Origin: Polaribacter atrinae
GTDB taxonomy: Bacteria > Bacteroidota > Bacteroidia > Flavobacteriales > Flavobacteriaceae
Length of the DNA: 64,000 nt
Direction: 5' to 3'
Assembly: GCF_038023995.1 (NCBI RefSeq)
Contig: NZ_CP150660.1
Span: 1,052,501 to 1,116,500, forward strand
A program made the translations under genes and the position numbers. Position 1 is the stretch's first letter. The number at the start of each line of letters is the position of its first letter. Below are positions 9,189 to 63,671 of this stretch, one piece after another. Under the pieces are notes generated by a model that did not search any database, was not told the DNA's origin, and saw nothing but the letters and a program-made list of their open reading frames with translations.

Positions 9189-9243
9189 ATTTAATATAAC
9201 GAGTTAGCAAATATTAAAAAAAATACCCAACAAAAATTAAGTT

Positions 9244-10458
9244 ATGAAAAAAAATGTAAAATTAACATTAAGTCTAGTTTTAACCTTCTTATTGCTATAT
9301 AGTTGCAGTAATTCTTTAGAAGCTGATTCTAGCAAATTTGCCGAATTAATGTGTCAAGCAAATGAACTTGATAAAAAAATGGCTACTGGAGATATGAATG
9401 CGTACAACAAAAGAAATATGCTTATATTTGATATTGCCGAATTAGAACAGTCATTCGGAGATAAATACAAAGATGAAGACTCAAAAAAAGAATTTGACAA
9501 CGCTGTTTCTTTAGCAATGTTAAAAACGAAATGTAATACAGACAGTAAAACTAAAAATAAGGATAAGACAGTAACGAAAGAAGAAATAAGTGAACCAAAA
9601 ATTGACAAAGAGTTTATAACTTTAAATTCAATTCAAATTGGAGATAATATTACTCAACATCAAGATTACAAACTTGATAAAGAACAAGATAATTTTTTTG
9701 ATATTTATATTAATAAAGAAAAAACAACAATAAATAAACTTGAAGGGAATTTAAAACTTTATGTATCAAACTCAATTGTTGAAAAAATTGAATTTAATAG
9801 TGGTAATAGTTTTATGGGTTCAACAAGCGTTGCAGGTTCTGTTTTTGACGCAATGTTAAAAAAACGAAAAAATTGGGTTCGAGATGCTATGCTTAACTAC
9901 AACATTACTCAATGGGATGACTCAAGAAAAAAATCACAATATGTAAAACAAGACTTTTTACATCAATATGATTTAGAAAGAATTGAAATGTTAGGAACTC
10001 AATTGGGTTGGAATATGTCATATGTTATAACCTCTAAAGATGCAGAGAAAAAAGAGCTACAAGGAAAAAAAAGAAATCTTAATTTTGGTTCTACTAAAGA
10101 TAAAAAAGTAGTAGAGAAAAAAATAAACGAAAATCAAAAAGAGATTGAATTTATTGAATATAAAGGTGAAATAAAAACCTATCCTATTACAATGAAAATC
10201 AAATTCTATGGTGAATATAATTGCAATACTGATAACTCTTTAATTGAAGGATACTATTATTATAATAAGAGTGGTGAATCAAATAAATTGATCTTAAAAG
10301 GGTATTATTGTGGCAAAAATATTACAATTGAAGAAAAAGATTCTAACAACAACACTACTGGAATTTTTAATGGTATACAAAATAATAATACAATTGAGGG
10401 GGTTTGGAAAAACCCAAAGACTGATAAAAAATTAAACTTTATTATTAGAAAAGAATAA
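9244..10458 (+). CDS. Putative lipoprotein of unknown function (cassette 1)
   Basis: A 404-residue protein with a clear lipoprotein signal (hydrophobic 7-20, lipobox LLYSC, Cys21), so it is anchored in the inner or outer membrane. I do not recognise the family. A Lys/Asp-rich low-complexity linker (residues about 95-120) separates a helical N-terminal part from a C-terminal part with beta-like repeats (KGYYCGKNITIEEKD, GVWKNPKTDKK) that resemble small WG/MORN-like strands without being a clear match. The gene fills the first cassette, starting 41 bp after the core at 9203 and ending 8 bp before the inverse core of attC1. As first cassette it would be best placed for expression from the putative left-end promoter. 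Confidence 0.75.
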   Translation: MKKNVKLTLSLVLTFLLLYSCSNSLEADSSKFAELMCQANELDKKMATGDMNAYNKRNMLIFDIAELEQSFGDKYKDEDSKKEFDNAVSLAMLKTKCNTDSKTKNKDKTVTKEEISEPKIDKEFITLNSIQIGDNITQHQDYKLDKEQDNFFDIYINKEKTTINKLEGNLKLYVSNSIVEKIEFNSGNSFMGSTSVAGSVFDAMLKKRKNWVRDAMLNYNITQWDDSRKKSQYVKQDFLHQYDLERIEMLGTQLGWNMSYVITSKDAEKKELQGKKRNLNFGSTKDKKVVEKKINENQKEIEFIEYKGEIKTYPITMKIKFYGEYNCNTDNSLIEGYYYYNKSGESNKLILKGYYCGKNITIEEKDSNNNTTGIFNGIQNNNTIEGVWKNPKTDKKLNFIIRKE

Positions 10459-10465
10459 TAACATT

Positions 10466-10599
10466 TGCTAACACCGTATATAATTTATTGCTACCTTATC
10501 GCCTACTTACGAAAGTCCTCGCGGACTTTCTTGGTCGGTAATTATTTACTAAATTAGTTGCTTGAAACACGCAACAAACCATATACAACAACGTTGGCA
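10466..10599 (+). repeat. attC-like site 1
   Basis: Inverse core TGCTAAC at 10466-10472, core GTTGGCA at 10593-10599. Central hairpin GAAAGTCC-TCGC-GGACTTTC at 10511-10530. Paired L-type arms GTATATAATTTATTGC and GCAACAAACCATATAC surround it. Confidence 0.88.
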
Positions 10600-11113
10600 A
10601 CAATACCTCATCAGAACGTTGAAAATGTGTGATTTAAAGAAATTTTTTGAATTTTAAAACCGAATGATTGATAGATTTTAAATGTAGGATTTAAAGATGA
10701 AATGATTAAAAGATTTTACAGACTTTGACGGAAAATCTGAAAGCTCGAAAAATTTTTGTTTTTTAAATAAATGAGTTTTTAAGAAAAAAAGATTGAATTG
10801 ACATTGTCGGAAAATCTGAATGGAAAAAAGATTTAAAGATGAAAAGATTTTACAGACTTTGACGGAAAATCTGAACGCTCGAAAAATTTTTAGTTTTTAA
10901 GCAAATGAGTTTTATGAAAAAAGATTGAATTAACATTGTCGGAAAATCTGAATGGAAAAAGATTTAAAGATGAAATGATTTTACAGACTTTATGGAAAAT
11001 CTGAATGGAAAAAGATTTAAAGATGAAATGATTTTATAGACTTTGTGAAATATGAATTATAAAAAATATCTGAAATTTAAGAAAATTAGAGAAATTAAGA
11101 AAGATTGTACTGT
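10600..11113. other. Cassette 2: ORF-less cassette built of degenerate direct repeats
   Basis: No ORF of usable length on either strand. The body consists of several imperfect copies of a unit containing GATTTAAAGATGAAATGATT, then TTACAGACTTTGACGGAAAA and TCTGAA, with partial units such as GATTGAATTGACATTGTCGG between them, from about 10640 to 11050. The cassette starts GTTGGCAACA and ends TGTAGCCAAC. It could encode an RNA, be a decayed gene, or be passive repeat DNA; the repeats are in no consistent reading frame. Confidence 0.7.
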
Positions 11114-11246
11114 AGCCAACAGCGTGTAAAGAAAATTGCTACTTTTAGCTTGCTTGCGAAAATAATTGCAAACGTGGAAGTTTGGTAAATATTTACTAAA
11201 TTTACTGCTTGATAATCGCAACTTTCCTTACACAATCACGTTGTAA
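11114..11246 (+). repeat. attC-like site 2
   Basis: Inverse core AGCCAAC at 11114-11120, core GTTGTAA at 11240-11246. This divergent member lacks the usual central 8-bp hairpin; the outer arms (GTGTAAAG, CTTTCCTTACAC) still pair. Confidence 0.78.
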
Positions 11247-11450
11247 GTAATGCGGAAAAACGTGCTAAACATCAACATCTGAATTAAAAAACCAACCGCA
11301 CAGTCAAGCACATTTCATTTTTCTCGTGCCTCAAAAAATAAAAAGAGCTTGCCTTTTCCCAACGCTAAACTTCTGATAATACAATGAACATTTTCATTAT
11401 TTAACAATGAATTTTTGCTATCTTTCTGCCGAATTATAAAAAGGTTTAAA

Positions 11451-11657
11451 ATGAACCGAATAAAAGAAGTTTTAAAAGACAAAGGAATTAGTCAAACTTG
11501 GCTTGCTGAAAAAATGGACAAAAGTTATCCGACCATTAATGAATACGCAAGAAACAAAAGACAACCGAGTTTAGAAGACTTATACAAAATAGCAGAAATA
11601 CTACAAGTCAACGCAAAAGACTTGTTAGTAGATAGCGAAAATAAGATTGGGAAATAA
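11451..11657 (+). CDS. XRE/Cro-type helix-turn-helix regulator of the R-M system (cassette 3)
   Basis: A 68-residue DNA-binding protein, one HTH_3 domain: QTWLAEKMDKSYPTINEYAR is the helix-turn-helix, RQPSLEDLYKIAEIL the stabilising helices. The ATG at 11451 is chosen because the sister gene at 34188 begins with the same MNRIKEVLK. It lies directly ahead of the type III methylase (start 11659, no gap), the usual place of a regulator timing R-M expression. The two paralogues head two different type III systems, so this promoter-regulator part seems conserved while the R-M genes change. Confidence 0.85.
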   Translation: MNRIKEVLKDKGISQTWLAEKMDKSYPTINEYARNKRQPSLEDLYKIAEILQVNAKDLLVDSENKIGK

Positions 11658-11658
11658 G

Positions 11659-13629
11659 ATGAGTAAAGAACAAAAAATAACAGGCAACATACAACCACCA
11701 AATAAGGATTTGGAAATACTAAAACAAAACTTCCCAAGCTGTTTTGACAAAAAAGGAGAATTTGACTTTGAAAAATTCAAAATCCAACTTTCAAAAAACG
11801 AAATCAACTTTTCAAAAGAAAGTTACGGAATGGATTGGCTCGGTAAATCTTACGCTCGTTTATTGGCAACAGACGAAACTACTACTCTATTACAAGAAGA
11901 TGAAAAGTTTAACCAAAAAGAAGAAAATAAAAACTCTGAAAACTTACTCATAAAAGGCGACAATTTGGAAGTGCTAAAGCACTTATCAAATGCTTATTAC
12001 GAAAAAATAAAAATGATATACATAGACCCACCCTACAACACAGGTAGTGATGGTTTTGTATATGCAGACGACAGAAAATTCACTATAGATGAACTACAAG
12101 AATTAGCAGGAGTAAATGAAGAACGAGCCAAACGAATTTTAGATTTTACCCAAAGTAAAAGTAACTCACATTCTGCTTGGTTAACGTTTATGTACCCAAG
12201 ACTTTATATTGCCAAACAACTTCTAAAAGATGATGGTGCTATATTTGTTTCTATTGATGACAATGAATTAGCACAATTAAAATTGTTATTAGATGAAATA
12301 TTTGGAGAAGAAAATTTTGTAGAAATTTTTACTTGGAATAAAACATCAACACCAGCCTCATTATCTAAAAAGTCACGTAAAACTGTTGAATATATTTTAT
12401 GCTATGAAAAAAACAAAAATAATTTTAAATATTACGGAGAAGATTTATCTGGTGGAGACCAACCTCTTTTAAATGAAGGAAATAATATTGGAGTTTTAAA
12501 AATACCTAAGGATAAAATTATTTTTAAAATTGATGATGGTATTTATAATTCTGGACAATATCACAGAATAAATCTTCTTAATGATATTGAAATTATTGAA
12601 GGTAAAAGCTCTGAGGATTTAAACATAGAAGGTAGATTTAAATGGCAACAAAGTTTTTTAGATAATGAAATAAGTAAAGGGACAACCTTTATTATCAAAT
12701 CAAACAAGTTTTCAATTCGTTTCCAACGATTCGAAGATGAGAGCTATAAAACCCCAACTAATTATATTAGAGACAATATAATCTTCCCTTTATTAGACAA
12801 AACTAATGCAGAGATTGACACAAACGAAACTTCTTCTAAGGAATTAGAAGAATTATTTGGTAGCAAAGTTTTTGACTTTCCAAAACCTGTCAGTCTAATA
12901 AAATATTTAATAAATTTTTTAGTCAATGAAAATGAATTAATCTTAGACTTTTTTGCAGGCTCAGGAACAACAGGAGATTCAGTAATGCAACTCAACGCAG
13001 AAGATGCTGGAAATCGCAAATTTATTTTAGCACAATTACCCGAACTAATTGACCAAAAAAGTAATCAAACAGCTTACGATTTCGTGAAAAATGAGTTAAA
13101 AGTAGAAATACCTACCATTTTTGAAATTACAAAAGAAAGGTTGATAAGAGCAAGTAAAAAAATACAAGGAGAACGAGAAGGTGAAGACTTCTCAAATCAA
13201 GATTTAGGTTTCAAAGTATTTGAAACAATGCCAATATGGGAAGATTATAATTTTGAATCAGAAGAACTTGAAAAACAAACCACTTTGTTTGATGAAAGTA
13301 AACTAACCAAAGAAGACATAAAAGCACTATTAGTTACTTGGAAAACCTATGATGGTATTTCACTTACTGAAACAATACAAGAAACTGACTTAAATGGCTA
13401 TACAGGATATTATAGTTATGAGAATTTATATTTAATGGATAAAGGTTTTACAACCACAAACTTGAAAGTATTATTAGAAAAAATAGATATTGATAAAAAT
13501 TTTAACCCAACTACAATCATTGCATTTGGTTATCATTTTGAAAGTAAAAATTTGCGTGAAATAAGCGAAAATATTAAGTCTTATGCAAACAAAAAAAGTA
13601 TTGATATTGACTTTATAACACGCTATTAA
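11659..13629 (+). CDS. mod: Type III restriction-modification methyltransferase subunit Mod
   Basis: Adenine-N6 DNA methyltransferase, recognition and modification subunit of a type III R-M enzyme. Of about 656 residues, catalytic motif IV DPPYNTG lies near 122 and the S-adenosylmethionine site LDFFAGSGTTGDS near 430. IV precedes I, the beta-class order of EcoP15I-type Mod proteins. The region between them (about 220-400) would be the target recognition domain. ATG 11659 is preferred to an upstream in-frame TTG at 11647. The gene follows the regulator without a gap and precedes Res by 1 bp, a three-gene operon filling cassette 3. Target sequence is not predictable here. Confidence 0.94.
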   Translation: MSKEQKITGNIQPPNKDLEILKQNFPSCFDKKGEFDFEKFKIQLSKNEINFSKESYGMDWLGKSYARLLATDETTTLLQEDEKFNQKEENKNSENLLIKGDNLEVLKHLSNAYYEKIKMIYIDPPYNTGSDGFVYADDRKFTIDELQELAGVNEERAKRILDFTQSKSNSHSAWLTFMYPRLYIAKQLLKDDGAIFVSIDDNELAQLKLLLDEIFGEENFVEIFTWNKTSTPASLSKKSRKTVEYILCYEKNKNNFKYYGEDLSGGDQPLLNEGNNIGVLKIPKDKIIFKIDDGIYNSGQYHRINLLNDIEIIEGKSSEDLNIEGRFKWQQSFLDNEISKGTTFIIKSNKFSIRFQRFEDESYKTPTNYIRDNIIFPLLDKTNAEIDTNETSSKELEELFGSKVFDFPKPVSLIKYLINFLVNENELILDFFAGSGTTGDSVMQLNAEDAGNRKFILAQLPELIDQKSNQTAYDFVKNELKVEIPTIFEITKERLIRASKKIQGEREGEDFSNQDLGFKVFETMPIWEDYNFESEELEKQTTLFDESKLTKEDIKALLVTWKTYDGISLTETIQETDLNGYTGYYSYENLYLMDKGFTTTNLKVLLEKIDIDKNFNPTTIIAFGYHFESKNLREISENIKSYANKKSIDIDFITRY

Positions 13630-13630
13630 T

Positions 13631-16504
13631 ATGAAAGGATTTAATTTTGAAAAAAATCTACAGCATCAATCGCAAGCGGTAAAAAGTACGGTTACTGTTT
13701 TTGATAATTTAGAAATAGAAAACCCAAAAGGTGTTGACAAACAATTTCTTAATCCAGTCTTAAAAATTTATGATGGCAATAATACCTATCCTAAAAACAT
13801 AATAGAATTACAAAAGGTAAATAATATTGAAGGAAAGGTAAATCTAAACAGTAACATCATAGATATTATGATGGAAACAGGAACAGGAAAAACCTATACT
13901 TACACCAAAACCATTTTTGAACTCAATAAAAATTACGGTCTTTTTAAATTTATTGTTATTGTTCCTACACTTTCTATTAAAGCTGGAACAGTCGATTTTT
14001 TAAAAAGTGATAGTGCAAGAGCACATTTTAAAGAGCAATATGGTAGAACCATTAAATTACATATCGTAGAAAGTAAAAAAGGAGGTAAAAACAAAAAATC
14101 GTTTATGCCACCTGCTGTAAACAGTTTTGTTAACGCAGGAGTTTACGAAAAAAACAGCATTCAAGTAATGGTTATCAATGCAGGAATGGTAAACTCTGAA
14201 ACAATGCGAAAGAGTTTTGACAAAGGAATATTTGACAAACATATAGTTCCTTTTAAAGCAATTTCGGCAGTTAATCCTTTTCTAATAATAGATGAACCTC
14301 ATAAGTTTTCGAAAGCCAATAAAACTTGGGAGAATATTCAAAAAATGAAACCGCAATTTATTTTGCGTTATGGTGCAACATTTAAAGAATATGAAAATTT
14401 AGTTTACACATTAACTGCGGTCGATTCTTTCAATCGTAATTTAGTAAAAGGTGTAATAGGTCATATTACAGAGTTTGAAAGCGGAAAAAATGCTATTGTA
14501 AAACTCAATAATACAGATGGAAAAGAAGCTACTTTTGAATTATTGGAAGACAAGAGTAAAAAGACATTTAAACTTACTAAAAAAGAAAGTTTACAAAGAG
14601 TGCATTCTGCAATGGAAGACTTGTATGTAGAAAGTTTAAACAAAAGCAAAGTTGTTTTATCTAATGGAATTGAATTATCAAAAGGCGATAAATTAAACCC
14701 TTATTCTTATGCAGAAAAACTGCAAGAAGTAATGATTCAAAAAGCAATAAAAAGCCACTTTGAAAATGAGAAACAATTACTTACAAGAAGTGTAAAAATT
14801 AAACCAATTACACTATTCTTTATTGACAACATAGAAGAGTACAGAAATGAAGATGGTTATTTAAGAACTACTATTGAAAGTTTGATAAAAGCAGAAGTAA
14901 AAACCTTACTTAAAACTGAAAAGAACAAGTTTTACAAAGCATATCTTGAAAAAACTTTAAAAGATATAAGTCTCACTCACGCAGGATATTTTTCAAAAGA
15001 TAATTCAGAGAAAGATGAAGCGATTGAAAAAGAAATAAACGAAATATTGCACGACAAACAAGCAATGCTTGATTTGGATAATCCAAGACGTTTTATTTTT
15101 TCAAAATGGACTTTACGAGAAGGTTGGGATAATCCTAATGTTTTTCAGATTTGTAAATTAAGAAGTAGTGGTAGCGATATTTCTAAACTGCAAGAAGTTG
15201 GTAGAGGTTTAAGGCTTCCAGTAAATGAATACGGAAACCGAGTTAAAGACGAACAGTTTTATCTAAACTACTTTGTAGATTTTACAGAAAGTGATTTTGT
15301 AGATAAATTAGTAAATGAAATAAATGAGAAATCTGGTGCAATTTCAATAGAGGATATTCCAGAAAAATTATCAGACGATATCGTTAAGAAAATTTGCGAA
15401 TTATACGAAACCACAGAAGATGATTTATTTGAAATATTAGACGAAAATAATGTTGTAACAAGGTCTAATAAATTCAAAGAAGGCGGTTTTGACTTTATTA
15501 AACATAACTATCCTAAAATATTTCAAGGTGTTGGCTCTAATAAAGTTAGAAAATCTACAGATAAGAAAAAACAAGTTAGTATACGAACAGAAAAATACAC
15601 CGAATTAAAAGAACTTTGGGAGAAATTAAATGAAAAGGTAATTTTAGAATACAAGTTTGAAAAAGAAGACAAATTCAAATCACTTTTTATAAATTTCTTG
15701 AATGAGCAAAACAGTAATTTCACTATTGAAGGTATAAAAGAAAGAACAGCACAAATTGAAATAACTGACAACGTTGTTGGAGTTAAAGAAGAACAAGAAA
15801 TCTATGGAAATGAGATAACGCCAATTTCTACAATGAAATACAGTAGTTTCTTGAAGGAATTAGCAAAAACATTAAACATCAATATAAAGACTTTAAACAG
15901 TTCATTTATTGATTCTAATATCGACATAAACAAATTTCTAAATATTGCCACAGTTCGTATTATTAAACAAAAATTTGAGAATTATTTGATGTTTAACGCA
16001 ATAGATAAATTTGGAATTGAATATCAAAAAGTAAGCAACGAAATTCATCCAACTAAATTTACTGACGAAAAAGGAAATGTATTAAAAGAAATTTCTGCAT
16101 CTGATGTTGGAGTAATGTATTCTGATAAGAAAGTAGCTGACCAATATTTACTTGATGAATTATTTTACGATTCTGAATTAGAAAAACAGAATATTGAAAC
16201 TAATTTATCAGAAGTTATTGTCTTCTCTAAAATCCCAAAAAACTCAATAAAGATTCCTGTTGCTGGCGGAAAAAGTTATTCGCCTGACTTTGCTTATGTA
16301 TTAAATTATGAAGACAAATCGAAAAAGTTGTACTTTGTTGTAGAGACTAAAGGTAAAGATGAAGAAAAGTTAGATAAAGAAGAAAGACAAAAAATAAAAC
16401 ACGCAGAAAAGTTTTTTGGAGATACAGTAAAAATTAAATTCAAAACACAATTCAGCAATAAGAAAATAGAAAGTTTAATACGAGAAATTATAGTTGAAAA
16501 ATAG
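13631..16504 (+). CDS. res: Type III restriction subunit Res (helicase-nuclease)
   Basis: A 957-residue ATP-dependent restriction subunit. Superfamily 2 helicase motifs: Walker A METGTGKT near 81-88, DEPH box near 220, motif III LRYGATFKEY, and motifs V-VI KWTLREGWDNPNV and QEVGRGLRLP near 490-525. The C-terminal PD-(D/E)XK nuclease has SPDFAYV near 882 and VVETKGK near 902, the Asp and Glu-x-Lys of the active site. Length and order match type III Res. It needs Mod to bind and cut DNA. No damage is visible, so the pair looks functional. Confidence 0.94.
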   Translation: MKGFNFEKNLQHQSQAVKSTVTVFDNLEIENPKGVDKQFLNPVLKIYDGNNTYPKNIIELQKVNNIEGKVNLNSNIIDIMMETGTGKTYTYTKTIFELNKNYGLFKFIVIVPTLSIKAGTVDFLKSDSARAHFKEQYGRTIKLHIVESKKGGKNKKSFMPPAVNSFVNAGVYEKNSIQVMVINAGMVNSETMRKSFDKGIFDKHIVPFKAISAVNPFLIIDEPHKFSKANKTWENIQKMKPQFILRYGATFKEYENLVYTLTAVDSFNRNLVKGVIGHITEFESGKNAIVKLNNTDGKEATFELLEDKSKKTFKLTKKESLQRVHSAMEDLYVESLNKSKVVLSNGIELSKGDKLNPYSYAEKLQEVMIQKAIKSHFENEKQLLTRSVKIKPITLFFIDNIEEYRNEDGYLRTTIESLIKAEVKTLLKTEKNKFYKAYLEKTLKDISLTHAGYFSKDNSEKDEAIEKEINEILHDKQAMLDLDNPRRFIFSKWTLREGWDNPNVFQICKLRSSGSDISKLQEVGRGLRLPVNEYGNRVKDEQFYLNYFVDFTESDFVDKLVNEINEKSGAISIEDIPEKLSDDIVKKICELYETTEDDLFEILDENNVVTRSNKFKEGGFDFIKHNYPKIFQGVGSNKVRKSTDKKKQVSIRTEKYTELKELWEKLNEKVILEYKFEKEDKFKSLFINFLNEQNSNFTIEGIKERTAQIEITDNVVGVKEEQEIYGNEITPISTMKYSSFLKELAKTLNINIKTLNSSFIDSNIDINKFLNIATVRIIKQKFENYLMFNAIDKFGIEYQKVSNEIHPTKFTDEKGNVLKEISASDVGVMYSDKKVADQYLLDELFYDSELEKQNIETNLSEVIVFSKIPKNSIKIPVAGGKSYSPDFAYVLNYEDKSKKLYFVVETKGKDEEKLDKEERQKIKHAEKFFGDTVKIKFKTQFSNKKIESLIREIIVEK

Positions 16505-16647: not shown

Positions 16648-16844
16648 TTACAACAACGTGTATAAAACATAGCTATTATAGGCTTTCCGAGAGGTTTCTG
16701 TATATTTACAAAGTACGCCAAATTTTTTATTTGGTTATATTTATAAAAGAAAATTAAACATAAAAATAAAAAATTCGGCTTGTGCTAAATCCGAAAAGTT
16801 AGCGACTATTTATACGCTACGTTTCATACACAAGACCGTTGTAA
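16648..16844 (+). repeat. attC-like site 3 (long type)
   Basis: Inverse core TTACAAC at 16648-16654, core GTTGTAA at 16838-16844; 197 bp. The middle is a long A+T stem: GCCAAATTTTTTATTT pairs with AAATAAAAAATTCGGC. Same type as sites 16 and 28. Confidence 0.83.
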
Positions 16845-17650: not shown

Positions 17651-17839
17651 TTACAACAATGTATAAAAATAATAAGGGTTTTAGTGCTTAATTCAAAGTT
17701 TAGTGCATTTAATGAAGTCCGCAAAATTTTCAATTTTGCGTGTATCTTTTTTAAAGGTAAAAATTAAAAATTTTGCTAAGTGCTAAACCGAAAGCCAGTG
17801 CATTTTAATCCCTTACTATTCTTATACTAAACGTTGGCA
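17651..17839 (+). repeat. attC-like site 4 (long type)
   Basis: Inverse core TTACAAC at 17651-17657, core GTTGGCA at 17833-17839; 189 bp. Central hairpin CGCAAAATT-TTC-AATTTTGCG near 17718-17738. Cassette 4 starts GTTGTAAGGCATT and ends AACGCCTTACAAC. Confidence 0.84.
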
Positions 17840-17856: not shown

Positions 17857-18798
17857 ATGGATAAAAATTTGAAATGTTTCATCTCTTCGTCACACAATGT
17901 TGACACATCACATATCAAGAATATTCTTGCCGAAAATAGTGTGCAAACTTTTGACTTATATGACTTTTCTGTTGGAGATTCAATACAACAAATCTTAAAA
18001 AGGAAAATCAAGGAAGCTGACTTCGCTATATTTATAATTACTGACAATAATCCAAACGTAATATATGAAATGGGGGTTTGTGAAGGTCTTGGAAAACAGC
18101 ACTTCATTCTACTTGACAAAGATTTAAAAATCCCTTTTTACATTCAAAACAAATTGTTCATAAGGACTGATGTAAATGATTTTGAATTTACTAGAAACTC
18201 AATTTCAAAATTACTTTTAGATATAAAGAAAAAAACAAAACCATATTATTCAAAACAAAAAGATAAAATAAAAAAGTCAATAGAATATCATAGTGATACT
18301 AAAAGTCAATTAAGAGATATTCTTTCAGAAATTCAAGATTTACGAAACTATACAAGTGGTGATAAAAACGGAGGGAATTCAGCTAGAAATGGATTTAAAA
18401 TGGAAGATATTACCGCTAAAGTTTTCAACATTCTAAAACTAAACTATGTTGAAAATAACACAAATAAAGACAAAGGAATTGATTTCGCTTTGTGGAGTGA
18501 TAATTTAGGTAAAATATTAGGGAACCCTATAATTTTTGAGCTTAAATATGGTCGTTTAAATAGAGCTAGACTTGAAAACGCAGAAAATCAAATTAGAAAG
18601 TATATTGAGATTTCTGATGCCAAAGTTGGTGTTCTGCTCTATCTCGATAGAGAAAATAAAAGGCATAAAATCAAATCTTCCCTTTCTCCATTAATATTTA
18701 GTTACGATTTAGAAGACTTCGTTAATGAACTAATAGAAACTTCATTTGAGACTTTGATGTTAAATCAAAGAAACAAAATAGCACACGGACTCGAATAA
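17857..18798 (+). CDS. TIR-like nucleotide-binding domain fused to a PD-(D/E)XK nuclease (cassette 5)
   Basis: 313 residues. The N-terminal domain (about 5-120) has the fold pattern of TIR-like NAD/nucleotide-binding proteins: KCFISSSH at strand 1, EADFAIFIITDNNPNVIYEMGVCEGLGK, then HFILLDKD. The C-terminal domain (about 170-300) reads KGIDFAL near 205 and IIFELKYG near 224, the Asp...Glu-x-Lys active site of Mrr/archaeal-type restriction nucleases. A charged helical linker joins them. The stop overlaps the next gene's start (TAATG), and that gene also encodes a PD-(D/E)XK domain, giving a tight two-gene unit in its own cassette. An anti-phage role is inferred from these domains and the R-M-rich surroundings. 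Confidence 0.72.
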   Translation: MDKNLKCFISSSHNVDTSHIKNILAENSVQTFDLYDFSVGDSIQQILKRKIKEADFAIFIITDNNPNVIYEMGVCEGLGKQHFILLDKDLKIPFYIQNKLFIRTDVNDFEFTRNSISKLLLDIKKKTKPYYSKQKDKIKKSIEYHSDTKSQLRDILSEIQDLRNYTSGDKNGGNSARNGFKMEDITAKVFNILKLNYVENNTNKDKGIDFALWSDNLGKILGNPIIFELKYGRLNRARLENAENQIRKYIEISDAKVGVLLYLDRENKRHKIKSSLSPLIFSYDLEDFVNELIETSFETLMLNQRNKIAHGLE

Positions 18799-19342: not shown

Positions 19343-19538
19343 TGCCAACAATGTATAAAAAACATAGGGCGTTTGTGCTTATCCGAAAGTTCTTTGCATA
19401 TTAACAAAGTCCGCTAAATATAAATTTTGGCATTTATAGTAGAAAAAATAAAAGCAAAATATTTATATTTCGCTAAGTAATAAACCGATAAGAAAGTGCT
19501 TTTTAACCGCCCTACGTTTCTTATACTAAACGTTACCT
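19343..19538 (+). repeat. attC-like site 5 (long type)
   Basis: Inverse core TGCCAAC at 19343-19349, core GTTACCT at 19532-19538; 196 bp. Central A+T stem around TAAATATAAATTTT and AAAATATTTATATTT. The core departs from GTTRRRY, yet matches its own cassette's other end. Confidence 0.82.
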
Positions 19539-25152: not shown

Positions 25153-25283
25153 AGGTAACAATGTATATAAAAAATAGGCGAATATGTGCTAAATTCAAGC
25201 TTTTTGGCTCGTATCAAACTTTGTGCTTAATCGAAAGTTTCTTGCTTCCAAATCGCCTACTTTTCATATACTTAACGTTGGCT
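25153..25283 (+). repeat. attC-like site 6
   Basis: Inverse core AGGTAAC at 25153-25159, core GTTGGCT at 25277-25283. Cassette 6 starts GTTACCTGC and ends GCAGGTAAC (9 bp perfect). The middle lacks the common 8-bp hairpin; GGCGA and TCGCC mark the inner pair. Confidence 0.84.
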
Positions 25284-25750: not shown

Positions 25751-25882
25751 CCAACACCGTATAAAAAAAATTGCTAAATTAGTGCTTAATTAAAGGCAGT
25801 TGCATTTTTATCAACTTCTGAATTTCCTTCGGAAATTCCTCGCTGACAAAACCGCAACTTTCCTTATACAACAACGTTGGCA
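25749..25882 (+). repeat. attC-like site 7
   Basis: Inverse core AGCCAAC at 25749-25755, core GTTGGCA at 25876-25882. Central hairpin GAATTTCC-TTC-GGAAATTC at 25820-25838, a different sequence with the same shape as the common type. Confidence 0.87.
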
Positions 25883-44083: not shown

Positions 44084-44094
44084 AAAAAGCCTGT

Positions 44095-45734: not shown

Positions 45735-45746
45735 TATTTTAGCATT

Positions 45747-46845: not shown

Positions 46846-46978
46846 TGCCAACACCGTGTATAATTCATTGCTAGTTATAGCCTACTTACGAAAGTCCTCG
46901 CGGACTTTCTATCTGTGATTTATTTGCTAACTTTAGTGCTTGAAACACGCAACGAAATCATACACAAAACCGTTGTAA
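46846..46978 (+). repeat. attC-like site 25
   Basis: Inverse core TGCCAAC at 46846-46852, core GTTGTAA at 46972-46978. Hairpin GAAAGTCC-TCGC-GGACTTTC at 46890-46909. Confidence 0.88.
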
Positions 46979-48356: not shown

Positions 48357-48488
48357 TTACAACACCGTATAAAATTAATTGCTGGTTTTAGCCTATTTAC
48401 GAAAGTCCTCGCGGACTTTCTATCTGTGATTTATTTGCTAACTTTAGTACTTAAAACACGCAACTAATCTTATACAAACACGTTAGGT
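48357..48488 (+). repeat. attC-like site 26
   Basis: Inverse core TTACAAC at 48357-48363, core GTTAGGT at 48482-48488. Hairpin GAAAGTCC-TCGC-GGACTTTC at 48401-48420. Cassette 26 begins GTTGTAAGCAAGC and ends GCCTGCTTACAAC. Confidence 0.88.
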
Positions 48489-50110: not shown

Positions 50111-50241
50111 ACCTAACACCGTATATAATTTATTGCTAGTTCTAGCCTACTTACGAAAATTCTCGCGGATTTTCTATTCGGTTTTTATTTACTAAATTAC
50201 GTGCTAAACCACGCAACAAACCATATACAAACACGTTGTGT
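50111..50241 (+). repeat. attC-like site 27
   Basis: Inverse core ACCTAAC at 50111-50117, core GTTGTGT at 50235-50241. Hairpin GAAAATTC-TCGC-GGATTTTC at 50155-50174, with one mismatch (an uncompensated change from GAAAATCC). Confidence 0.87.
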
Positions 50242-53400: not shown

Positions 53401-53461
53401 TTATGAATTGTATGGATTATCGGAAAATGAAATTAAAATAGTAGAAAATGCCAACGCATAA
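50414..53461 (+). CDS. Solo Eco57I-like type IIG restriction-modification enzyme (cassette 28)
   Basis: 1015 residues. N-terminal nuclease: KKTDGAIL near 85 and VIELKGT near 100. Adenine methylase: FYTPKYITKYIVDKTI, motif I CDPACGSGAFLNQALE near 440, motif IV IGNPPYVDIKG near 564. C-terminal target recognition and coiled coil (KGQKQKAEIVKTEIEKTEIE) near the end. As a single chain it could both modify and cut; no partner gene is in the cassette. The final residues NANA and the DNA behind them are shared with the end of the cassette 16 Res gene. Confidence 0.92.
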   Translation: MSLFQNSVLNKYLKGLESEKVNQAYERFTSHFHNPTIQENIRNSKEEQYQGEFLIDLFVNVFGYVKNPTPDFNLTTELKNIKGSKKTDGAILKGEKALAVIELKGTNTTDLSKVETQAFGYKNNQPGCKYVITSNFEKLRFYIDNAVDFEEFNLFQLTKERFDILWLCLSSEYLLKDIPKKIKDESLTQEENITKKLYKDYASFRNEIFDAIQNENPEYDKLTLFKKTQKLLDRFLFIFFAEDRLLLPPNSIRSIVNQWTDLKDKYDEYFPLYDRFKKYFGYMNTGHKGQQHNIFAYNGGLFAPDEILDNIKINDDLLYKHTVNLSNYDFESEVSVNILGHIFEHSLNDIDEIQAEIQGVETEQSKTKRKKDGVFYTPKYITKYIVDKTIGKLCEEKKTKLDIQEAEYEKERRGRQKATLKKLTQKLEDYRNWLLQITICDPACGSGAFLNQALEFLIAEHQYIDELQAKLFGDAMILSEVENAILENNIYGVDINEESVEIAKLSLWLRTAQKGRKLTSLNNNIKCGNSLIDDPIFAGDKAFNWQNEFPEVFSKGGFDVIIGNPPYVDIKGLDNDLVKVLFNTYKTTENRINLYSIFIEKGYDLVKKDGFLSFINPNSILVNSSYTKIRKLLLDDMTRIVKLPDDVFEDATVETIIFEFRKDYSNDKVNTIVYNKSEKISYVDDLRTKEISKANWKQNENWNFNIYVSPEQFELLQKIPSNSVELETIADFTLGITPYDKYRGHSQEIIKSRAFHSKTKDSDIYKPLISGGNIERYYVSDEITEYIKYGDWLGAPRDERFFKSPRILIRQIVSGKPPRIYAGYTDKSLYYTQIGFGVIPNPETISVKSLLALINSNLINFYHKYSFLDLEKELFQKILIANCKKFPISNRLLKEPNLFNQIIEKMIELKEQENLLINNFIELFESKLSINKPSKKLQNWNILDFGSLLKEFKKLKVKLSLEEEAEWMQYFKGQKQKAEIVKTEIEKTEIEIDQMVYELYGLSENEIKIVENANA

Positions 53462-53591: not shown

Positions 53592-53788
53592 ACACAACAA
53601 CGTGTATAAAACATAGCTATTACAGGCTTTCCGAGAGGTTTTTGCTTATTTATTAAGTCCGCCAAATTTTTATTTTTGTATATTTAGAATTTAAAAGATA
53701 AATAGAAAAAATAAAAATTCGGCTAGTGCTAAATCCGAAAAGTTAGCGTTTATTTATACGCTACGTTTCATACACAAGACCGTTGTAT
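53592..53788 (+). repeat. attC-like site 28 (long type)
   Basis: Inverse core ACACAAC at 53592-53598, core GTTGTAT at 53782-53788; 197 bp, nearly the same as sites 3 and 16. Confidence 0.85.
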
Positions 53789-54334
53789 TTAATATCGGAG
53801 ACTTTTGGAATTTTCAACCCACTTTATCGAATATTCAAGAATTTTTTGTGGAGAAGTTTAACGGTTTTGACTTTGGAATTTTAAGACTCAAACTGAACGA
53901 TTGAAATCGTTGAGAGTTTACTCTCAAAACATTGAAACGTTTTTCAGTTTGAAGATAGTTAAAAAATTTGAGAAAGTCAAGTAAGATCCTACTTCTCTTG
54001 TAATTAACTTGAATATTCTTTCACTCTAAGACGTTCCATATAAAAAGCATATAAAACATATTAGAGCGAAAAACTGAATTGAAAACCAATCTATGTAGCG
54101 TCTTCGAGACTACGTATTTTTTAATATTTTTAAGAGAAGTTCACAATAATTCATTAGAAGAAGTAGGCTCTAGAATATCCAGAGGAATAATTATGGAAAA
54201 TACTAAACACAACAGCCTATATAAAAAATAGCTACATCAGTTATTATTTAAAAAAATTCTGTATTTTTAAAAGCCAATAGAATGCCTACAGAAAATATAG
54301 CTTAAAATGATCGCTACTTTCCATATAGGCAAAC
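53782..54334 (+). repeat. 553-bp ORF-less cassette, copy 4 (cassette 29)
   Basis: Same text as copy 1. Branched RNA region at 53887-53951. It follows an R-M cassette of the shared-flank type, as do copies 1 and 2. Confidence 0.9.
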
Positions 54335-54341
54335 GTTGGCA
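54207..54341 (+). repeat. attC-like site 29 (553-bp-cassette type)
   Basis: Inverse core ACACAAC at 54207-54213, core GTTGGCA at 54335-54341. Confidence 0.86.
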
Positions 54342-54560: not shown

Positions 54561-55038
54561 GTTCAGAGAATGCACTAAAGAAGATTTCATCAGTTTCAAA
54601 ACAATGATGTCTTCTTTAGACTCTTCTCACAAAAAATTCTCTTCATCAATAAAAAATGTAATTGATAATGAAAGATATATTGAGCTGTTCTATAAAGCGT
54701 TGAACAGCGTAAATTTTTTTTTAACTTTTGCTGAACAGAACAATGAAATTATCGGTTTTTCTTACTCAAAAATAAATCACATAAAAAACAGTTATTTATT
54801 TAAAGATTGTTCTATTGGAGAAATTCAATATTTATATATTCAAAAAGAACATAGACTGAATCAAATTGGAAGACTATTATTAGAGAAAACCGAATTATCT
54901 CTAAAAGAACAGAATGTATCCGAAATTAGATTAAGAGTTTATTCATCCAATAATGAATCCTTCCCAGAGAAAGCAAATTACGAAGAAGATTATAAAGTCT
55001 TCCGAAAAAAAACTATTGCCAACACCGTGTATAATTAA
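54550..55038 (+). CDS. GNAT-family acetyltransferase (cassette 30), reading into the attC
   Basis: 162 residues. TIKFRECTKEDFISFKTMMS is the first GNAT strand and helix. IGEIQYLYIQKEHRLNQIGR holds the acetyl-CoA loop (R-L-N-Q-I-G-R, a Q/R-x-x-G-x-G/A variant), followed by LLLEKTELSLKE and IRLRVYSSN. Substrate unknown. The stop lies at 55038, 15 bp inside attC30, so the last seven residues (ANTVYN end) are encoded by the recombination site and would change if a different site were joined there. Confidence 0.83.
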   Translation: MTIKFRECTKEDFISFKTMMSSLDSSHKKFSSSIKNVIDNERYIELFYKALNSVNFFLTFAEQNNEIIGFSYSKINHIKNSYLFKDCSIGEIQYLYIQKEHRLNQIGRLLLEKTELSLKEQNVSEIRLRVYSSNNESFPEKANYEEDYKVFRKKTIANTVYN

Positions 55039-55147
55039 TGGCTAATTCTCGCCTACTTACGAAAATCCTCGCGGATTTTCTATTCGGTTTTTATTTGCTA
55101 AATTACGTGCTTAAACACGCCACTAATCATACACAAACACGTTGTAG
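55017..55147 (+). repeat. attC-like site 30
   Basis: Inverse core TGCCAAC at 55017-55023, core GTTGTAG at 55141-55147. Hairpin GAAAATCC-TCGC-GGATTTTC at 55061-55080. Overlaps the end of the GNAT gene. Confidence 0.88.
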
Positions 55148-55646: not shown

Positions 55647-55780
55647 CTACAACACCGTGTAATAAAAATTGCTTAATTTTAGCTTAACCAAAAGTTGTTG
55701 CTTTTTTATTCACTTCTATTTTCCTGTGGAAAATAGCCGTTCACAAAAATCGCAACTTTCAATACACAACAACGTTGCCA
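55647..55780 (+). repeat. attC-like site 31
   Basis: Inverse core CTACAAC at 55647-55653, core GTTGCCA at 55774-55780. Hairpin CTATTTTCC-TGT-GGAAAATAG at 55716-55736. Confidence 0.87.
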
Positions 55781-55852: not shown

Positions 55853-56146
55853 GTGAGAGTAATCGCAAAACGAACTTTACGAGATTTTTGGGAAAAACAC
55901 GCTGATTGTGAAGAACAATTAAAATCGTGGTATAGAGAAACTGAAAAATCCGAATGGAAAAATATTAACGAATTAAAAAGTGAATATCCGAGTGCTAGTA
56001 TTTTAAAAGACAATCGAATTGTTTACAATATAAAAGGTAATAATTATCGTTTGATTGTAAAATTTAATTTTGAATACGGAATATGCTGGATAAGGTTTAT
56101 CGGAACTCACGCTGAATATGATAAAATTGACGCAAATAATATCTAA
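55853..56146 (+). CDS. higB: HigB-type toxin (mRNA interferase) of a type II toxin-antitoxin pair (cassette 32)
   Basis: 97 residues, GTG start at 55853 (an ATG two bases upstream is out of frame and closed by TGA). HigB-toxin family pattern: VIAKRTLRDFWEKHADCEEQ, LKSWYRETEKSEWKNINELK, then NRIVYNIKGNNYRLIVKFNF and WIRFIGTHAEYDKI. The family cuts mRNA at ribosomes. The antitoxin gene follows after 2 bp (toxin first, the HigBA order). A toxin-antitoxin pair with its own promoter is a common stabiliser of cassette arrays. Confidence 0.9.
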   Translation: MRVIAKRTLRDFWEKHADCEEQLKSWYRETEKSEWKNINELKSEYPSASILKDNRIVYNIKGNNYRLIVKFNFEYGICWIRFIGTHAEYDKIDANNI

Positions 56147-56148
56147 TT

Positions 56149-56505
56149 ATGAAAATATTACCAATTAGAAACGAAAAAGACTATCAAAACGCACTCAACA
56201 GACTTGAGGAAATTTTTGATGCAAAAAAAGGAACGGAAGATGGAGACGAATTGGAAATCTTGTCAATTTTGATTGATAGATATGAAAATGAACAATTCCC
56301 AATCGGAATGCCTGACCCAATCGAAGCAATTAAATTCCGAATGGAACAAATGGGAATGAAACAAAAGGATTTAGCAGAAGTTGTTGGATTTAAAAGTAGA
56401 GTTAGCGAAATTTTAAATAAAAAAAGAAAACTGACTCTAGATATGATTAGAAAACTCAACACTACTCTACATATTCCTACTGAAGTTTTAATTCAAGATT
56501 ATTAA
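56149..56505 (+). CDS. higA: HigA-type antitoxin with helix-turn-helix
   Basis: 118 residues. The N-terminal half (YQNALNRLEEIFDAKKGTED, GDELEILSILIDRYENEQFP) is the HigA-specific toxin-binding part. The C-terminal XRE domain has MKQKDLAEVVGFKSRVSEIL and NKKRKLTLDMIRKLNTTLHI. It would neutralise HigB and repress the operon at the palindrome before higB. Length and order fit the HigA group paired with HigB toxins. Confidence 0.92.
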   Translation: MKILPIRNEKDYQNALNRLEEIFDAKKGTEDGDELEILSILIDRYENEQFPIGMPDPIEAIKFRMEQMGMKQKDLAEVVGFKSRVSEILNKKRKLTLDMIRKLNTTLHIPTEVLIQDY

Positions 56506-56520: not shown

Positions 56521-56654
56521 TGGCAACACCGTATATAATTTATTGCTGGCTTCTCGCCTACTTACGAAAGTCCTCGCGGACTTTCTTCGTCGGTAATTAT
56601 TTACTAAATTAGTTGCTTAAACCACGCAACAAACCATATACAAACACGTTGTGC
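56521..56654 (+). repeat. attC-like site 32
   Basis: Inverse core TGGCAAC at 56521-56527, core GTTGTGC at 56648-56654. Hairpin GAAAGTCC-TCGC-GGACTTTC at 56566-56585. Confidence 0.88.
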
Positions 56655-57571: not shown

Positions 57572-57703
57572 GCACAACACCGTATAAAATTAATTGCTAG
57601 TTCTAGCCTACTTACGAAAGTCCTCGCGGACTTTCTATCTGTGATTTATTTGCTAACTTTAGTGCTTAAAACACGCAACTAATCTTATACAAACACGTTG
57701 GGC
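57572..57703 (+). repeat. attC-like site 33
   Basis: Inverse core GCACAAC at 57572-57578, core GTTGGGC at 57697-57703 (this one fits GTTRRRY). Hairpin GAAAGTCC-TCGC-GGACTTTC at 57616-57635. Confidence 0.88.
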
Positions 57704-58359: not shown

Positions 58360-58491
58360 GCCCAACACCATATATAATTTATTGCTGGCTTTTTGCTTAC
58401 TTACGAAAATCCTCGCGGATTTTCTATTCAGTTTTTATTTACTAAATTAGGTGCTAAATCACGCAACAAACCATATATAAACACGTTGTAT
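58360..58491 (+). repeat. attC-like site 34
   Basis: Inverse core GCCCAAC at 58360-58366, core GTTGTAT at 58485-58491. Hairpin GAAAATCC-TCGC-GGATTTTC at 58405-58424. Cassette 34 starts GTTGGGCGTAAGC and ends GCCTACGCCCAAC. Confidence 0.88.
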
Positions 58492-59037
58492 TTAATATCG
58501 GAGACTTTTGGAATTTTCAACCCACTTTATCGAATATTCAAGAATTTTTTGTGGAGAAGTTTAACGGTTTTGACTTTGGAATTTTAAGACTCAAACTGAA
58601 CGATTGAAATCGTTGAGAGTTTACTCTCAAAACATTGAAACGTTTTTCAGTTTGAAGATAGTTAAAAAATTTGAGAAAGTCAAGTAAGATCCTACTTCTC
58701 TTGTAATTAACTTGAATATTCTTTCACTCTAAGACGTTCCATATAAAAAGCATATAAAACATATTAGAGCGAAAAACTGAATTGAAAACCAATCTATGTA
58801 GCGTCTTCGAGACTACGTATTTTTTAATATTTTTAAGAGAAGTTCACAATAATTCATTAGAAGAAGTAGGCTCTAGAATATCCAGAGGAATAATTATGGA
58901 AAATACTAAACACAACAGCCTATATAAAAAATAGCTACATCAGTTATTATTTAAAAAAATTCTGTATTTTTAAAAGCCAATAGAATGCCTACAGAAAATA
59001 TAGCTTAAAATGATCGCTACTTTCCATATAGGCAAAC
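58485..59037 (+). repeat. 553-bp ORF-less cassette, copy 5 (cassette 35)
   Basis: Same text as copy 1. Branched RNA region at 58590-58654. The next gene (59050) starts 12 bp after the cassette boundary. Confidence 0.9.
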
Positions 59038-59044
59038 GTTGCCC
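58910..59044 (+). repeat. attC-like site 35 (553-bp-cassette type)
   Basis: Inverse core ACACAAC at 58910-58916, core GTTGCCC at 59038-59044. Confidence 0.86.
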
Positions 59045-60038: not shown

Positions 60039-60172
60039 GGGCAACAACGTATATAATTTATAGCTTGGTCTGTTCTTACTCACGAAAAGCCTCTCGGCTT
60101 TTCTATTTTCGGTATTTATTTGCTAAATTACAGGCAGAAACACGCTACAAATCATATACAAGACCGTTGTAA
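60039..60172 (+). repeat. attC-like site 36
   Basis: Inverse core GGGCAAC at 60039-60045, core GTTGTAA at 60166-60172. Hairpin GAAAAGCC-TCTC-GGCTTTTC at 60084-60103: again a paired change. The 3' arm also differs (CACGCTACAAATCATATAC). Confidence 0.87.
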
Positions 60173-62241: not shown

Positions 62242-62262
62242 AACAATTAGAAATTTAACGTT

Positions 62263-62395
62263 TCACAACACCGTATATAATTTATTTTTATCTATAGCTT
62301 ATCTAAAAAACTACATCTTAAAACATACTAAGTATTGTATTTATATATTTATGCTAATCCAATACAAAACAAATCATATACAATCAACGTTAGGC
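62263..62395 (+). repeat. attC-like site 37
   Basis: Inverse core TCACAAC at 62263-62269, core GTTAGGC at 62389-62395. Outer arms (CCGTATATAATTTATTT, AAATCATATACAA) pair, but the middle is A+T-rich without the standard hairpin. Confidence 0.8.
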
Positions 62396-62412
62396 ACAAT
62401 TAGATAACAACT

Positions 62413-62871
62413 ATGGCATCTGCATTTTGGACTTTAGAAGATGGAAGAGGATTCGCAAGACGTTGGTCTGGAATGGCCTATATGTTGGAGCTAATAACAA
62501 ATGAATTAAAACACATTGCAGGAGCAGAAGATTTTTACAATTACTTGGAATGGTTTGTTATTAGAGAAGAAAAAGGAGATGAATATAATGGCTTCGGTGG
62601 ATTTATTAGAAATGATGAGAACATTATGTTTGACATTGATTTAAGGACATTCACACCAGCTAATAGAGCTTATTTTTGGGGAGCAACTCAAAAAGCATTA
62701 ATAAAGTTAATAAAGCAAAAAGACGAAAAAAATGAAGGTATCATTTTCCTCTTGACCACTTTACTTGATATGCATAAGAGAATCAAAAAAGGAGAAGACC
62801 CAATGGAATTAAATCATATGAATAATATTGAATCTGAACCGACTGAAAAACTTGGACCAGGTTGGAAATAA
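62413..62871 (+). CDS. Hypothetical protein (cassette 38, first gene)
   Basis: 152 residues: SAFWTLEDGRGFARRWSGMA, MLELITNELKHIAGAEDFYN, GFGGFIRNDENIMFDIDLRT and FTPANRAYFWGATQKALIKL. A soluble helical protein whose pattern (FxRRW...E.. and R.F...N...FW.A...AL) recurs in cassette-type small proteins; no named family. It is followed by another gene 6 bp downstream. Confidence 0.68.
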   Translation: MASAFWTLEDGRGFARRWSGMAYMLELITNELKHIAGAEDFYNYLEWFVIREEKGDEYNGFGGFIRNDENIMFDIDLRTFTPANRAYFWGATQKALIKLIKQKDEKNEGIIFLLTTLLDMHKRIKKGEDPMELNHMNNIESEPTEKLGPGWK

Positions 62872-62877
62872 AATACT

Positions 62878-63543
62878 ATGGATAAAGAAATAACATTTTC
62901 GGAATTTATAGAACATATATGCAAAAGACCACTAATGTATTGCTTGGGTGGAACTTTCAATGAAGTTTCGGCTTTTATCCAAGGATATTGTTCTGCTAAA
63001 GAAACACCGATTAGCGGAACTGAATTCAATCGATTTGTCTGCTTAAAAAATTCTTTCCCAACGAATTATATTTGGACTTACGTAATTAAAACTTGCTCGA
63101 AAAATGATGAAGACGGAATTTCGAATATAAAAGAAACAATTCTCGAATTTATAGAATTGTCCAACCGAATGAACGAAGAAGAATTATTCCAATTTGCTGT
63201 TGATAATGCAAATACGAAAGAAGGAGAACCAGAAAAAGTTTTTCGGAAATTCGAGAACGCTTTATTAGTAGGTAATAAAAAAATCATTCAATCCTTAATT
63301 TTAGATAACGATAAAGCAGATTTATTATGGAAAGGGAAATATCCAGATTCTGTTACTGAAAAGCTGAATGAATTGTCAGAAAACCAACCAATAAAGAGAA
63401 TTAAGGAATCTGAAAACGGAAAGTCAGTTGAATTAGTTGCTTCAGGTTTCCCATTTACAATTGAACTTATATTAAAAAATAACGAATGGAAAGTTAATGC
63501 GGACAAAATAATAAAATTAAGAACTGAAAATAACTGTGCCTAA
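62878..63543 (+). CDS. Hypothetical protein with SEC-C-like end region (cassette 38, second gene)
   Basis: 221 residues: FSEFIEHICKRPLMYCLGGT, FNEVSAFIQGYCSAKETPIS and FNRFVCLKNSFPTNYIWTYV form a helical N-terminal domain of the kind seen in Imm-like proteins (short 'RPxMYxG...FxxGY' pattern). The C-terminal half has SVELVASGFPFTIELILKNN and EWKVNADKIIKLRTENNCA, a small nuclear-transport-factor-2/DUF-type beta end. The stop codon lies inside the inverse core region of attC38. An immunity-type role is possible but unproven. Confidence 0.65.
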   Translation: MDKEITFSEFIEHICKRPLMYCLGGTFNEVSAFIQGYCSAKETPISGTEFNRFVCLKNSFPTNYIWTYVIKTCSKNDEDGISNIKETILEFIELSNRMNEEELFQFAVDNANTKEGEPEKVFRKFENALLVGNKKIIQSLILDNDKADLLWKGKYPDSVTEKLNELSENQPIKRIKESENGKSVELVASGFPFTIELILKNNEWKVNADKIIKLRTENNCA

Positions 63544-63671
63544 CACCGTGTATAACCAATTGCTTGGTTTGTGTGTACTCGGAAATTCCTAACGGAATTT
63601 CCTATTGGTTCGTTTTCTTTTGTTAACTTAGTTCTCGCCAACGCAACTAGCCATACACAAAACCGTTAGCT
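63538..63671 (+). repeat. attC-like site 38
   Basis: Inverse core GCCTAAC at 63538-63544, core GTTAGCT at 63665-63671. Hairpin GGAAATTCC-TAAC-GGAATTTCC at 63581-63602. Cassette 38 begins GTTAGGCACAATTAG and ends TAACTGTGCCTAAC. Last complete site in the window. Confidence 0.88.

Follow-up and report, generated by a model that had tools for sequence, protein, structure and literature searches.

The closest described systems to the locus reported here are the IntI integrons, whose integrases are held to have gained the recombination of single strands through the IntI-specific I2 domain (PMC7790495); how selection could favour I2 in the absence of any attC sites has been termed a 'chicken-egg paradox' (PMC4792948). 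This insertion is described as essential for integron function, although not fully conserved in an integron-like subgroup (PMC8138268), so that relatives lacking I2 may already have been seen as proteins. Surveys of integrons demand IntI profiles or the IntI domain (PMC9024848, PMC9668308, PMC2426708), the Bacteroidota are among the phyla listed with integrons (PMC8618304), and integrons from this phylum in print include In0 and that of Salinibacter ruber M1 (PMC9024848). Here we analyse a stretch of 64,000 nucleotides from Polaribacter atrinae (the window; contig NZ_CP150660.1, positions 1,052,501 to 1,116,500), which is best read as the head of a chromosomal superintegron belonging to an integron lineage that is widespread in Bacteroidota and whose sites lack the classical extrahelical stem bases. 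The system almost certainly works like an integron and is very probably driven by a linked tyrosine recombinase without I2; by definition it is not a member of the IntI integron family, since tests showed the integrase domain to be lacking and the core consensus to hold in few sites.

The window contains 38 attC-like sites, all on the plus strand and spanning 10470-63667, and 38 cassettes counted from position 9203. The sites fall into two size classes (32 of 123-127 nt and six of 181-190 nt) and run, with minor variations, from AAC..CGT(A/G)TA to TA(C/T)A...CGTT. A covariance model trained on 28 window sites of this genome only (R1) recovers all 38 of them, the 28 training sites matching by construction. 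In case of the cassettes lying between two sites, start positions 4-9 are the reverse complement of the cassette's own end with at least 5/6 letters in 37/37 cases: 215 of 222 letters agree, with the best of 20,000 shuffles reaching 126. The two ends within a single site match hardly above unrelated pairs. The first cassette, starting at 9203, exhibits the same complementarity when read directly from the sequence. Pairing between start and own end extends to about position 14 with the exception of position 11, which pairs in 0/37 window cassettes; among 122 distinct arms (arms with fewer than 5/6 matches excluded), 103 have a top-strand A.C at this position. Such complementarity between start and own end is what would follow from a cut at G/TT (the slash marks the cut) and circularisation of the cassette with a single site. 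The array is thus composed of tandem, co-oriented cassettes with one attC-like site each and with a start derived from the cassette's own site, and 40 of the 43 open reading frames (ORFs) of at least 100 aa in the array part of the window share this orientation (those on the minus strand include ORFs of 102 and 110 aa). A preliminary description of this DNA had claimed 38 sites in one orientation, cassette starts complementary to their own ends and cores of the type ...YAAC and GTT...; all of this is borne out, with GTT present in 38/38 window sites. Searches of the window with Rfam and ARAGORN found nothing and no tRNA, respectively.

The host chromosome is a single contig of 4.01 Mb, in which all 150 R1 candidates that were scored match, so that the true number of chromosomal sites is at least 150. 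The array of the window (array 1) comprises at least 137 sites over ~172 kb, from 1,061,703 to about 1,234,200, with one border site (at the L011/L012 border) excluded from the count. An extent of 9203..63671, as previously proposed, is hence correct within the window, past whose end the array continues for ~118 kb; similarly, the proposal of a sedentary or CALIN-type array holds for the integron-like geometry, although this is no small CALIN but rather the head of a very large array. A second array on the same chromosome (array 2; 34 sites, 3,809,389-3,853,946) lies on the minus strand. Starts match their own ends with at least 5/6 letters in 127 of 136 array-1 cassettes (window included) and in 30 of 33 array-2 cassettes, with shuffle means of 8-9%. 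Seven of the nine weakly matched array-1 cassettes fall in the last ~37 kb, in keeping with an old distal end. Outside both arrays, the chromosome carries further sites of this kind as singletons and in small clusters, including those at 706-708 kb, 2.414 Mb and 3.996 Mb.

The sites are predicted to fold as hairpins with the bottom strand favoured. The folding energy of the bottom strand is below that of the top strand in 38/38 window sites (five of which are identical copies), with a mean z of -2.7 and values below -2 in 29/38. RNAalifold applied to 28 sites gave 13 pairs, of which nine show compensatory changes; one-sided standard changes occur in none. Over 16 stem positions in 139 distinct sites (sites with non-standard ends excluded; related sites are not independent) we counted 1742 Watson-Crick pairs, 328 top-strand A.C, 3 top-strand G.T and 151 others: since a top-strand A.C reads as G.T on the complementary strand, pairing is continuous along the stem in the bottom strand alone. 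The inner and distal stem share one offset in 129/139 sites, which leaves no bulge between the two; an offset of 3 fits best in 127/139, corresponding to a 3-nt asymmetry adjoining the core. This offset comparison of the 139 distinct sites revealed no classical extrahelical bases within the stem, and the 3-nt asymmetry may take their role. The preliminary description had tied an integron reading to bottom-strand folds with extrahelical bases: preferential pairing of the bottom strand is present, but the classical extrahelical bases are not found in the stem. The core likewise departs from the classical form, with GTTR in 37/38 and GTTRRRY in 3/38 window sites (165/171 and 14/171, respectively, over both arrays).

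At the head of the window array, an attI-like site (9128..9202, plus strand) precedes the junction before GTT at 9203. It is identical in 64/75 nt to an attI-like stretch of a relative from the same genus, in which the recombinase gene ends inside this stretch, its first 42 nt being the end of the gene. As the first ~42 nt of 9128..9202 match the 3' tail of a recombinase gene, the window array once possessed its own recombinase there and lost it; with attI kept and the recombinase lost, the array would be served in trans. That no working integrase lies within the window had been correctly described beforehand, but the claim of only broken island integrases nearby overlooked this attI-like site with its decayed recombinase tail. 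The broken integrase pieces to the left of the array were rejected as the cognate enzyme, belonging to other Pfam types (SAM_5, partial PF00589) and showing weak similarity of the catalytic domain (31% over 149 aa). A sequence resembling a tRNA 3'-end (by eye; no tRNA by ARAGORN) followed by these pieces at 7475-8768 is perhaps a decayed genomic island beside the array head.

An open frame encoding a tyrosine recombinase of 374 aa is located at 3.854 Mb, and array 2 begins 99 nt after its stop. The integrase outside the window or different tyrosine recombinase that had been suggested is therefore present as a different tyrosine recombinase elsewhere in the chromosome, but it is not IntI. As expected of a recombinase without the IntI-specific domain, the proposed search for this domain gave nothing over cut-off in the genome: in both of its enzymes TIGR02249 is under cut-off, with the profile unmatched at ~177-239. 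The second enzyme, of 407 aa, lies at 2.777 Mb; an array beside it was rejected, with no attI found alongside and one very weak site. The best NCBIfam model for the 374-aa recombinase is NF040815 (XerA type; product name 'site-specific tyrosine recombinase/integron integrase') with 202 bits against a cut-off of 220, followed by the IntI model with 190 bits against 265; of four relatives tested, two exceed the NF040815 cut-off and none that of IntI. Between the two catalytic patches there are 92-94 residues in 46 Bacteroidota rows versus 134-145 in 26 IntI rows, indicating that the I2 domain of ~42 residues is missing (4/48 Bacteroidota loci with frames below 265 aa were excluded from the patch spacing and the tree). 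The N-terminus carries ~95 extra residues, within which Pfam gave no credible match; the predicted structure has a pLDDT of 84.6 and a pTM of 0.55. The family is large (at least 8000 candidates at E 0.001), and the matches listed include a 98% identical protein named from a Polaribacter metagenome-assembled genome. The recombinase tree places 25 IntI rows in a single clade at 100/99, with one row (L096) apart on a very long branch; its long branches and weak deep support do not allow a decision on whether the family predates IntI. The ORF before the 374-aa recombinase was taken by eye for dnaE, with no Pfam family in its last 157 aa; among 78 loci searched, a dnaE-like neighbour stands beside one relative's recombinase only (L107/L126, one genome).

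The linkage between such recombinases and sites was analysed with the best 80 recombinase loci, 48 from Bacteroidota and 32 from other phyla (26 with true IntI). R1 gave 76 matches at 25 of the Bacteroidota loci, all on the strand of the recombinase, and no match at the 32 loci from other phyla. The 75 tallied matches are all downstream of the recombinase and none upstream, though 404 kb upstream versus 205 kb downstream were searched (the tally leaves out a partial match, L049:19536-19623, and locus L130 with no R1 match). Loci of 11 further relatives contained matches in 10 cases, 112/112 being downstream and co-directional. The junction of the first cassette falls 1-156 nt after the recombinase stop in 29/36 loci, directly preceded by ATATAA in 26 of the 29 (the stops of loci L126-L136 are approximate). 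These 29 loci thus display an attI-like site beside the recombinase gene, which would function as attI; in the seven others the junction was either over 700 nt distant or did not resemble attI (L032, L059, L126, L134, L041), or no junction was obtained (L047, L069). By eye there are two types of attI, one accompanying recombinases like the 374-aa enzyme and the other the rest. The sequence TAnnTTTG, which we take to be the -7 promoter element of Bacteroidetes, is found at -22 in 9/16 type-2 sites, including that of the window, which is of this type (shuffle mean 0.4), and was not seen by eye in type-1 sites; it may mark a candidate Pc promoter for the cassettes. One genome (G181) contains two recombinase-attI-array units (L128, L129) 57 kb apart, with near-identical attI and shared stretches of ~98%. 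The linkage of recombinase, attI-like site and array is apparent across genera. It also bears on the idea that the host XerC/XerD move the cassettes, as phages use dif, with the linked recombinase an accessory: the genome does possess two genes of XerC/D length and motif, but the attC-like sites do not resemble dif, and at loci with matches every one follows the linked recombinase and points in its direction, which leaves this explanation highly improbable.

The cassettes themselves have been copied and moved. With copy families defined by an identity of 90% or more across 90% of the cassette length, the 171 cassettes of both arrays give 19 families with 47 members, 11 families containing a 100% pair; 14/38 window cassettes have a copy at this level. 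The tandem pair of 553-bp cassettes (Table 1) is joined by three further identical copies at 44222-44774, 53783-54335 and 58486-59038 (five in total), and this cassette contains no ATG-started ORF of at least 25 codons. Four of its pairs were checked: three end at CG/TT on both sides, and in the fourth (with 53783) identity extends 31 nt into the related preceding site. At a distance of ~69 kb, cassettes A19-A22 appear again, now ordered 21, 19, 22, 20, and A101 of array 1 and B26 of array 2 are identical over 1263 nt. In 19 duplicate pairs examined, identity past the right boundary stops within 5 nt in 19/19 and past the left boundary in 15, the other four lying behind related sites. Cassette B32 is 95% identical over its length to a cassette in another Flavobacteriaceae genus. 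Whole-cassette duplication and reshuffling are apparent from these comparisons, and where the preliminary description had named a static order without turnover as the outcome that would speak for mere repeats, cassettes are instead duplicated, shuffled and shared. A static repeat family, spread by homologous recombination or replication slippage, might draw on the similarity of the sites, which is sufficient for recombination, and on the 4/19 pairs whose identity runs 12-31 nt into related flanking sites; it is opposed by the complementarity of starts and own ends, by G/TT boundaries common to unrelated flanks, by the shuffled order and by a bottom-strand bias of 328 to 3, and is scarcely credible. 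Phage searches with the 553-bp cassette found nothing, and those with site 14 gave a partial match in a single phage. We further noted four places matching site 14 on a Tenacibaculum finnmarkense plasmid (L137; CP116298.1, 101651-117775), with a tyrosine recombinase annotated ~5.5 kb from the best match.

The 100% identical pairs also indicate that movement was probably recent. Together with the 3.854 Mb recombinase, an open frame with attI and array, they stand against a decayed former integron that is inactive in this genome, a possibility raised by the array head without its recombinase, the weakly matched cassettes at the distal end and the 2.777 Mb recombinase without attI; we consider it unlikely. 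For a functional integron-like system, the following scheme is proposed: the I2-less recombinase (374 aa, or the second type of 407 aa) most likely excises and inserts the cassettes; the bottom strand of the attC-like site would fold and then be cut at G/TT; and the circular cassette would be inserted either at another attC or at the attI-like site that follows the recombinase gene, with the window array now presumably served in trans. We are evenly divided as to whether the Bacteroidota hold a full integron lineage without I2 and classical extrahelical bases, either preserving a pre-I2 state or originating independently from a XerA-like recombinase, in which G.T wobbles and the 3-nt asymmetry set the choice of strand.

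Amongst 149 Flavobacteriaceae genomes, sites are present in 126, the recombinase in 101 and both in 95 (Fisher p about 1e-5), and IntI at E 1e-40 in 0/149, with a positive control of 5/5 IntI genomes. In 198 Bacteroidia genomes (six of Flavobacteriaceae) the recombinase was found in 102, R1 sites in 17 and both in 14; four genomes outside the family (G257, G267, G291, G330) have site and recombinase on one contig, co-directional and with the site downstream. A classical IntI integron, with its integrase elsewhere or brought by a mobile element and the co-located I2-less recombinase as a bystander, could account for the resemblance of the sites to attC and for the reported activity of IntI1 on Polaribacter phage P12002L, where attC2 was recombined through its bottom strand, its top strand gave no recombinants and attC1 failed (PMC9892861). 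R1 matches this phage at eight places (E no higher than 0.05), three of them just 54-57 nt long, and attC2 may be among these eight; no product name in the phage record is a recombinase. However, the absence of IntI at this threshold from a family with sites in 126 genomes, and an attI-like site directly behind the I2-less recombinase in 29/36 loci, render this explanation very unlikely. By eye, the phage also displays complementarity of start and own end around a methyltransferase gene, with compact sites of 54-56 nt (L105 37980-39280).

Several observations weigh against an integron driven by the I2-less recombinase. We infer recombination itself, including catalysis, circles and service in trans, from sequence. 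Deletion of I2 from IntI1 abolishes function (PMC7790495), which would speak against a working I2-less integrase unless the mechanism differs. The distribution is imperfect: 31/149 genomes have sites without the recombinase at E 1e-40 and 6/149 the recombinase without R1 matches, 23/48 Bacteroidota recombinase loci are without a site in the searched flank (some flanks being short), and outside the family R1 matches 14/192 Bacteroidia genomes versus 97/192 for the recombinase family, with R1 trained on this genome only. Moreover, six recombinases from other phyla (L073-L077, L080) also lack I2 and have no R1 match alongside, and the best fold of the isolated bottom strand is without the outer pairs in 9/38 window sites.

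The contents of the window cassettes (Table 1) were surveyed with Pfam on 40 ORFs (one outside the array), ten of which were also submitted to PADLOC, from a list of 60 ORFs of at least 80 aa. Restriction-modification genes are present in five window cassettes, named by Pfam and PADLOC, alongside a toxin-antitoxin pair, a TIR match barely over cut-off and many unknowns. Long 189-nt sites with a conserved upstream segment of ~138 nt end restriction-modification cassettes at 16502-16840, 38801-39137 and 53447-53784, and the long sites may travel with these genes. We also noted a 53-nt repeat (AGCACATTTATTTTTTGCCAACGC...) in four cassettes (19564-19616, 25055-25107, 34028-34080, 50300-50352) and a Mutator-family transposase within a cassette (60711-61907).

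Table 1. Cassettes, attC-like sites and recognised genes in the window; attC-like sites 1-38 are based on sequence location and an R1 covariance match.
Feature	Position	Strand	Remark
Cassette A0, 404-aa ORF, no Pfam match	9204..10593	+	start GTTAGCAAATATT, end complement GTTAGCAAATGTT
attC-like site 1	10470..10595	+	
attC-like site 2	11118..11242	+	
Type III restriction-modification genes, single cassette	11647..16504	+	Pfam, PADLOC
attC-like site 3 (long, 189 nt)	16652..16840	+	
attC-like site 4 (long)	17655..17835	+	
CAP12/Pycsar-type TIR domain protein	17857..18798	+	26 bits, barely over Pfam cut-off; no PADLOC match
attC-like site 5 (long)	19347..19534	+	
Type IIG-like and Eco57I-like enzyme genes, one 5.7-kb cassette	20061..25042	+	Pfam, PADLOC
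attC-like site 6	25157..25279	+	
attC-like site 7	25753..25878	+	
attC-like site 8	26826..26949	+	
attC-like site 9	27654..27778	+	
attC-like site 10 (long)	28837..29026	+	
attC-like site 11	29977..30100	+	
attC-like site 12	31555..31677	+	
attC-like site 13	32090..32213	+	
attC-like site 14	33070..33195	+	94% identical site on Tenacibaculum plasmid
attC-like site 15	33842..33967	+	
Second type III restriction-modification cassette	34386..38815	+	Pfam, PADLOC
attC-like site 16 (long)	38949..39137	+	
553-bp cassette, two tandem copies	39136..40241	+	100% identity over 553 nt
attC-like site 17	39564..39690	+	
attC-like site 18	40117..40243	+	
attC-like site 19	41210..41335	+	
Four cassettes A19-A22	41334..44221	+	recur full length, 100%, at 110106-112993 (extended window coordinates)
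attC-like site 20	41822..41944	+	
attC-like site 21	42520..42642	+	
attC-like site 22	43175..43299	+	
attC-like site 23	44099..44223	+	
attC-like site 24	44650..44776	+	
Adenine methyltransferase (minus) and type II restriction enzyme (plus), one cassette	44785..46836		Pfam, PADLOC
attC-like site 25	46850..46974	+	
attC-like site 26	48361..48484	+	
attC-like site 27	50115..50237	+	
Type IIG restriction enzyme-methyltransferase cassette	50414..53461	+	Pfam, PADLOC
attC-like site 28 (long)	53596..53784	+	
attC-like site 29	54211..54337	+	
attC-like site 30	55021..55143	+	
attC-like site 31	55651..55776	+	
HigB-type toxin-antitoxin cassette	55853..56505	+	Pfam
attC-like site 32	56525..56650	+	
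attC-like site 33	57576..57699	+	
attC-like site 34	58364..58487	+	
attC-like site 35	58914..59040	+	
attC-like site 36	60043..60168	+	
attC-like site 37 (weakest short-class site, 64 bits)	62267..62391	+	
attC-like site 38, array goes on past window	63542..63667	+	

A common natural system without I2 but with folded sites makes the I2 hypothesis testable and, if true, a full I2-less lineage would dissolve the published chicken-egg paradox on I2. A further large group of bacteria would thereby join those that use superintegrons, carrying restriction-modification and toxin-antitoxin genes in its cassettes; one cassette or more is common to different genera, and sites are found on a plasmid and a phage as well. 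A literature search, limited by licence and excluding preprints, gave no report of an I2-less Bacteroidota integron, which does not establish its absence from print.

Comparison with the IntI integrons (Vibrio-type superintegrons and class 1) reveals the same attI beside the recombinase, co-oriented cassettes ending in a folding attC, the same G/TT boundary, preference for the bottom strand, superintegron size and decayed distal end. The differences lie in the recombinase, here without I2 and with the extra N-terminal residues, in the placement of its gene, immediately ahead of the array and in the same direction, and in the sites, with GTTRRRY in only 14/171 and no bulge between inner and distal stem; the complementarity of start and own end covers ~14 nt versus 7 in the classical type, and there are multi-gene cassettes of up to ~5.7 kb in the window. 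In case of XerA, XerC and XerD (NF040815, TIGR02224/5), the patch spacing is like that of the genome's own Xer-length rows and NF040815 scores best, but the enzyme differs in its extra N-terminal region and its linkage to attI and array, and falls under the curated cut-offs for XerC, XerD and IntI. Compared with the reported Bacteroidota integrons, the present system would escape the IntI-based definition, and surveys that demand the IntI domain would therefore miss it.

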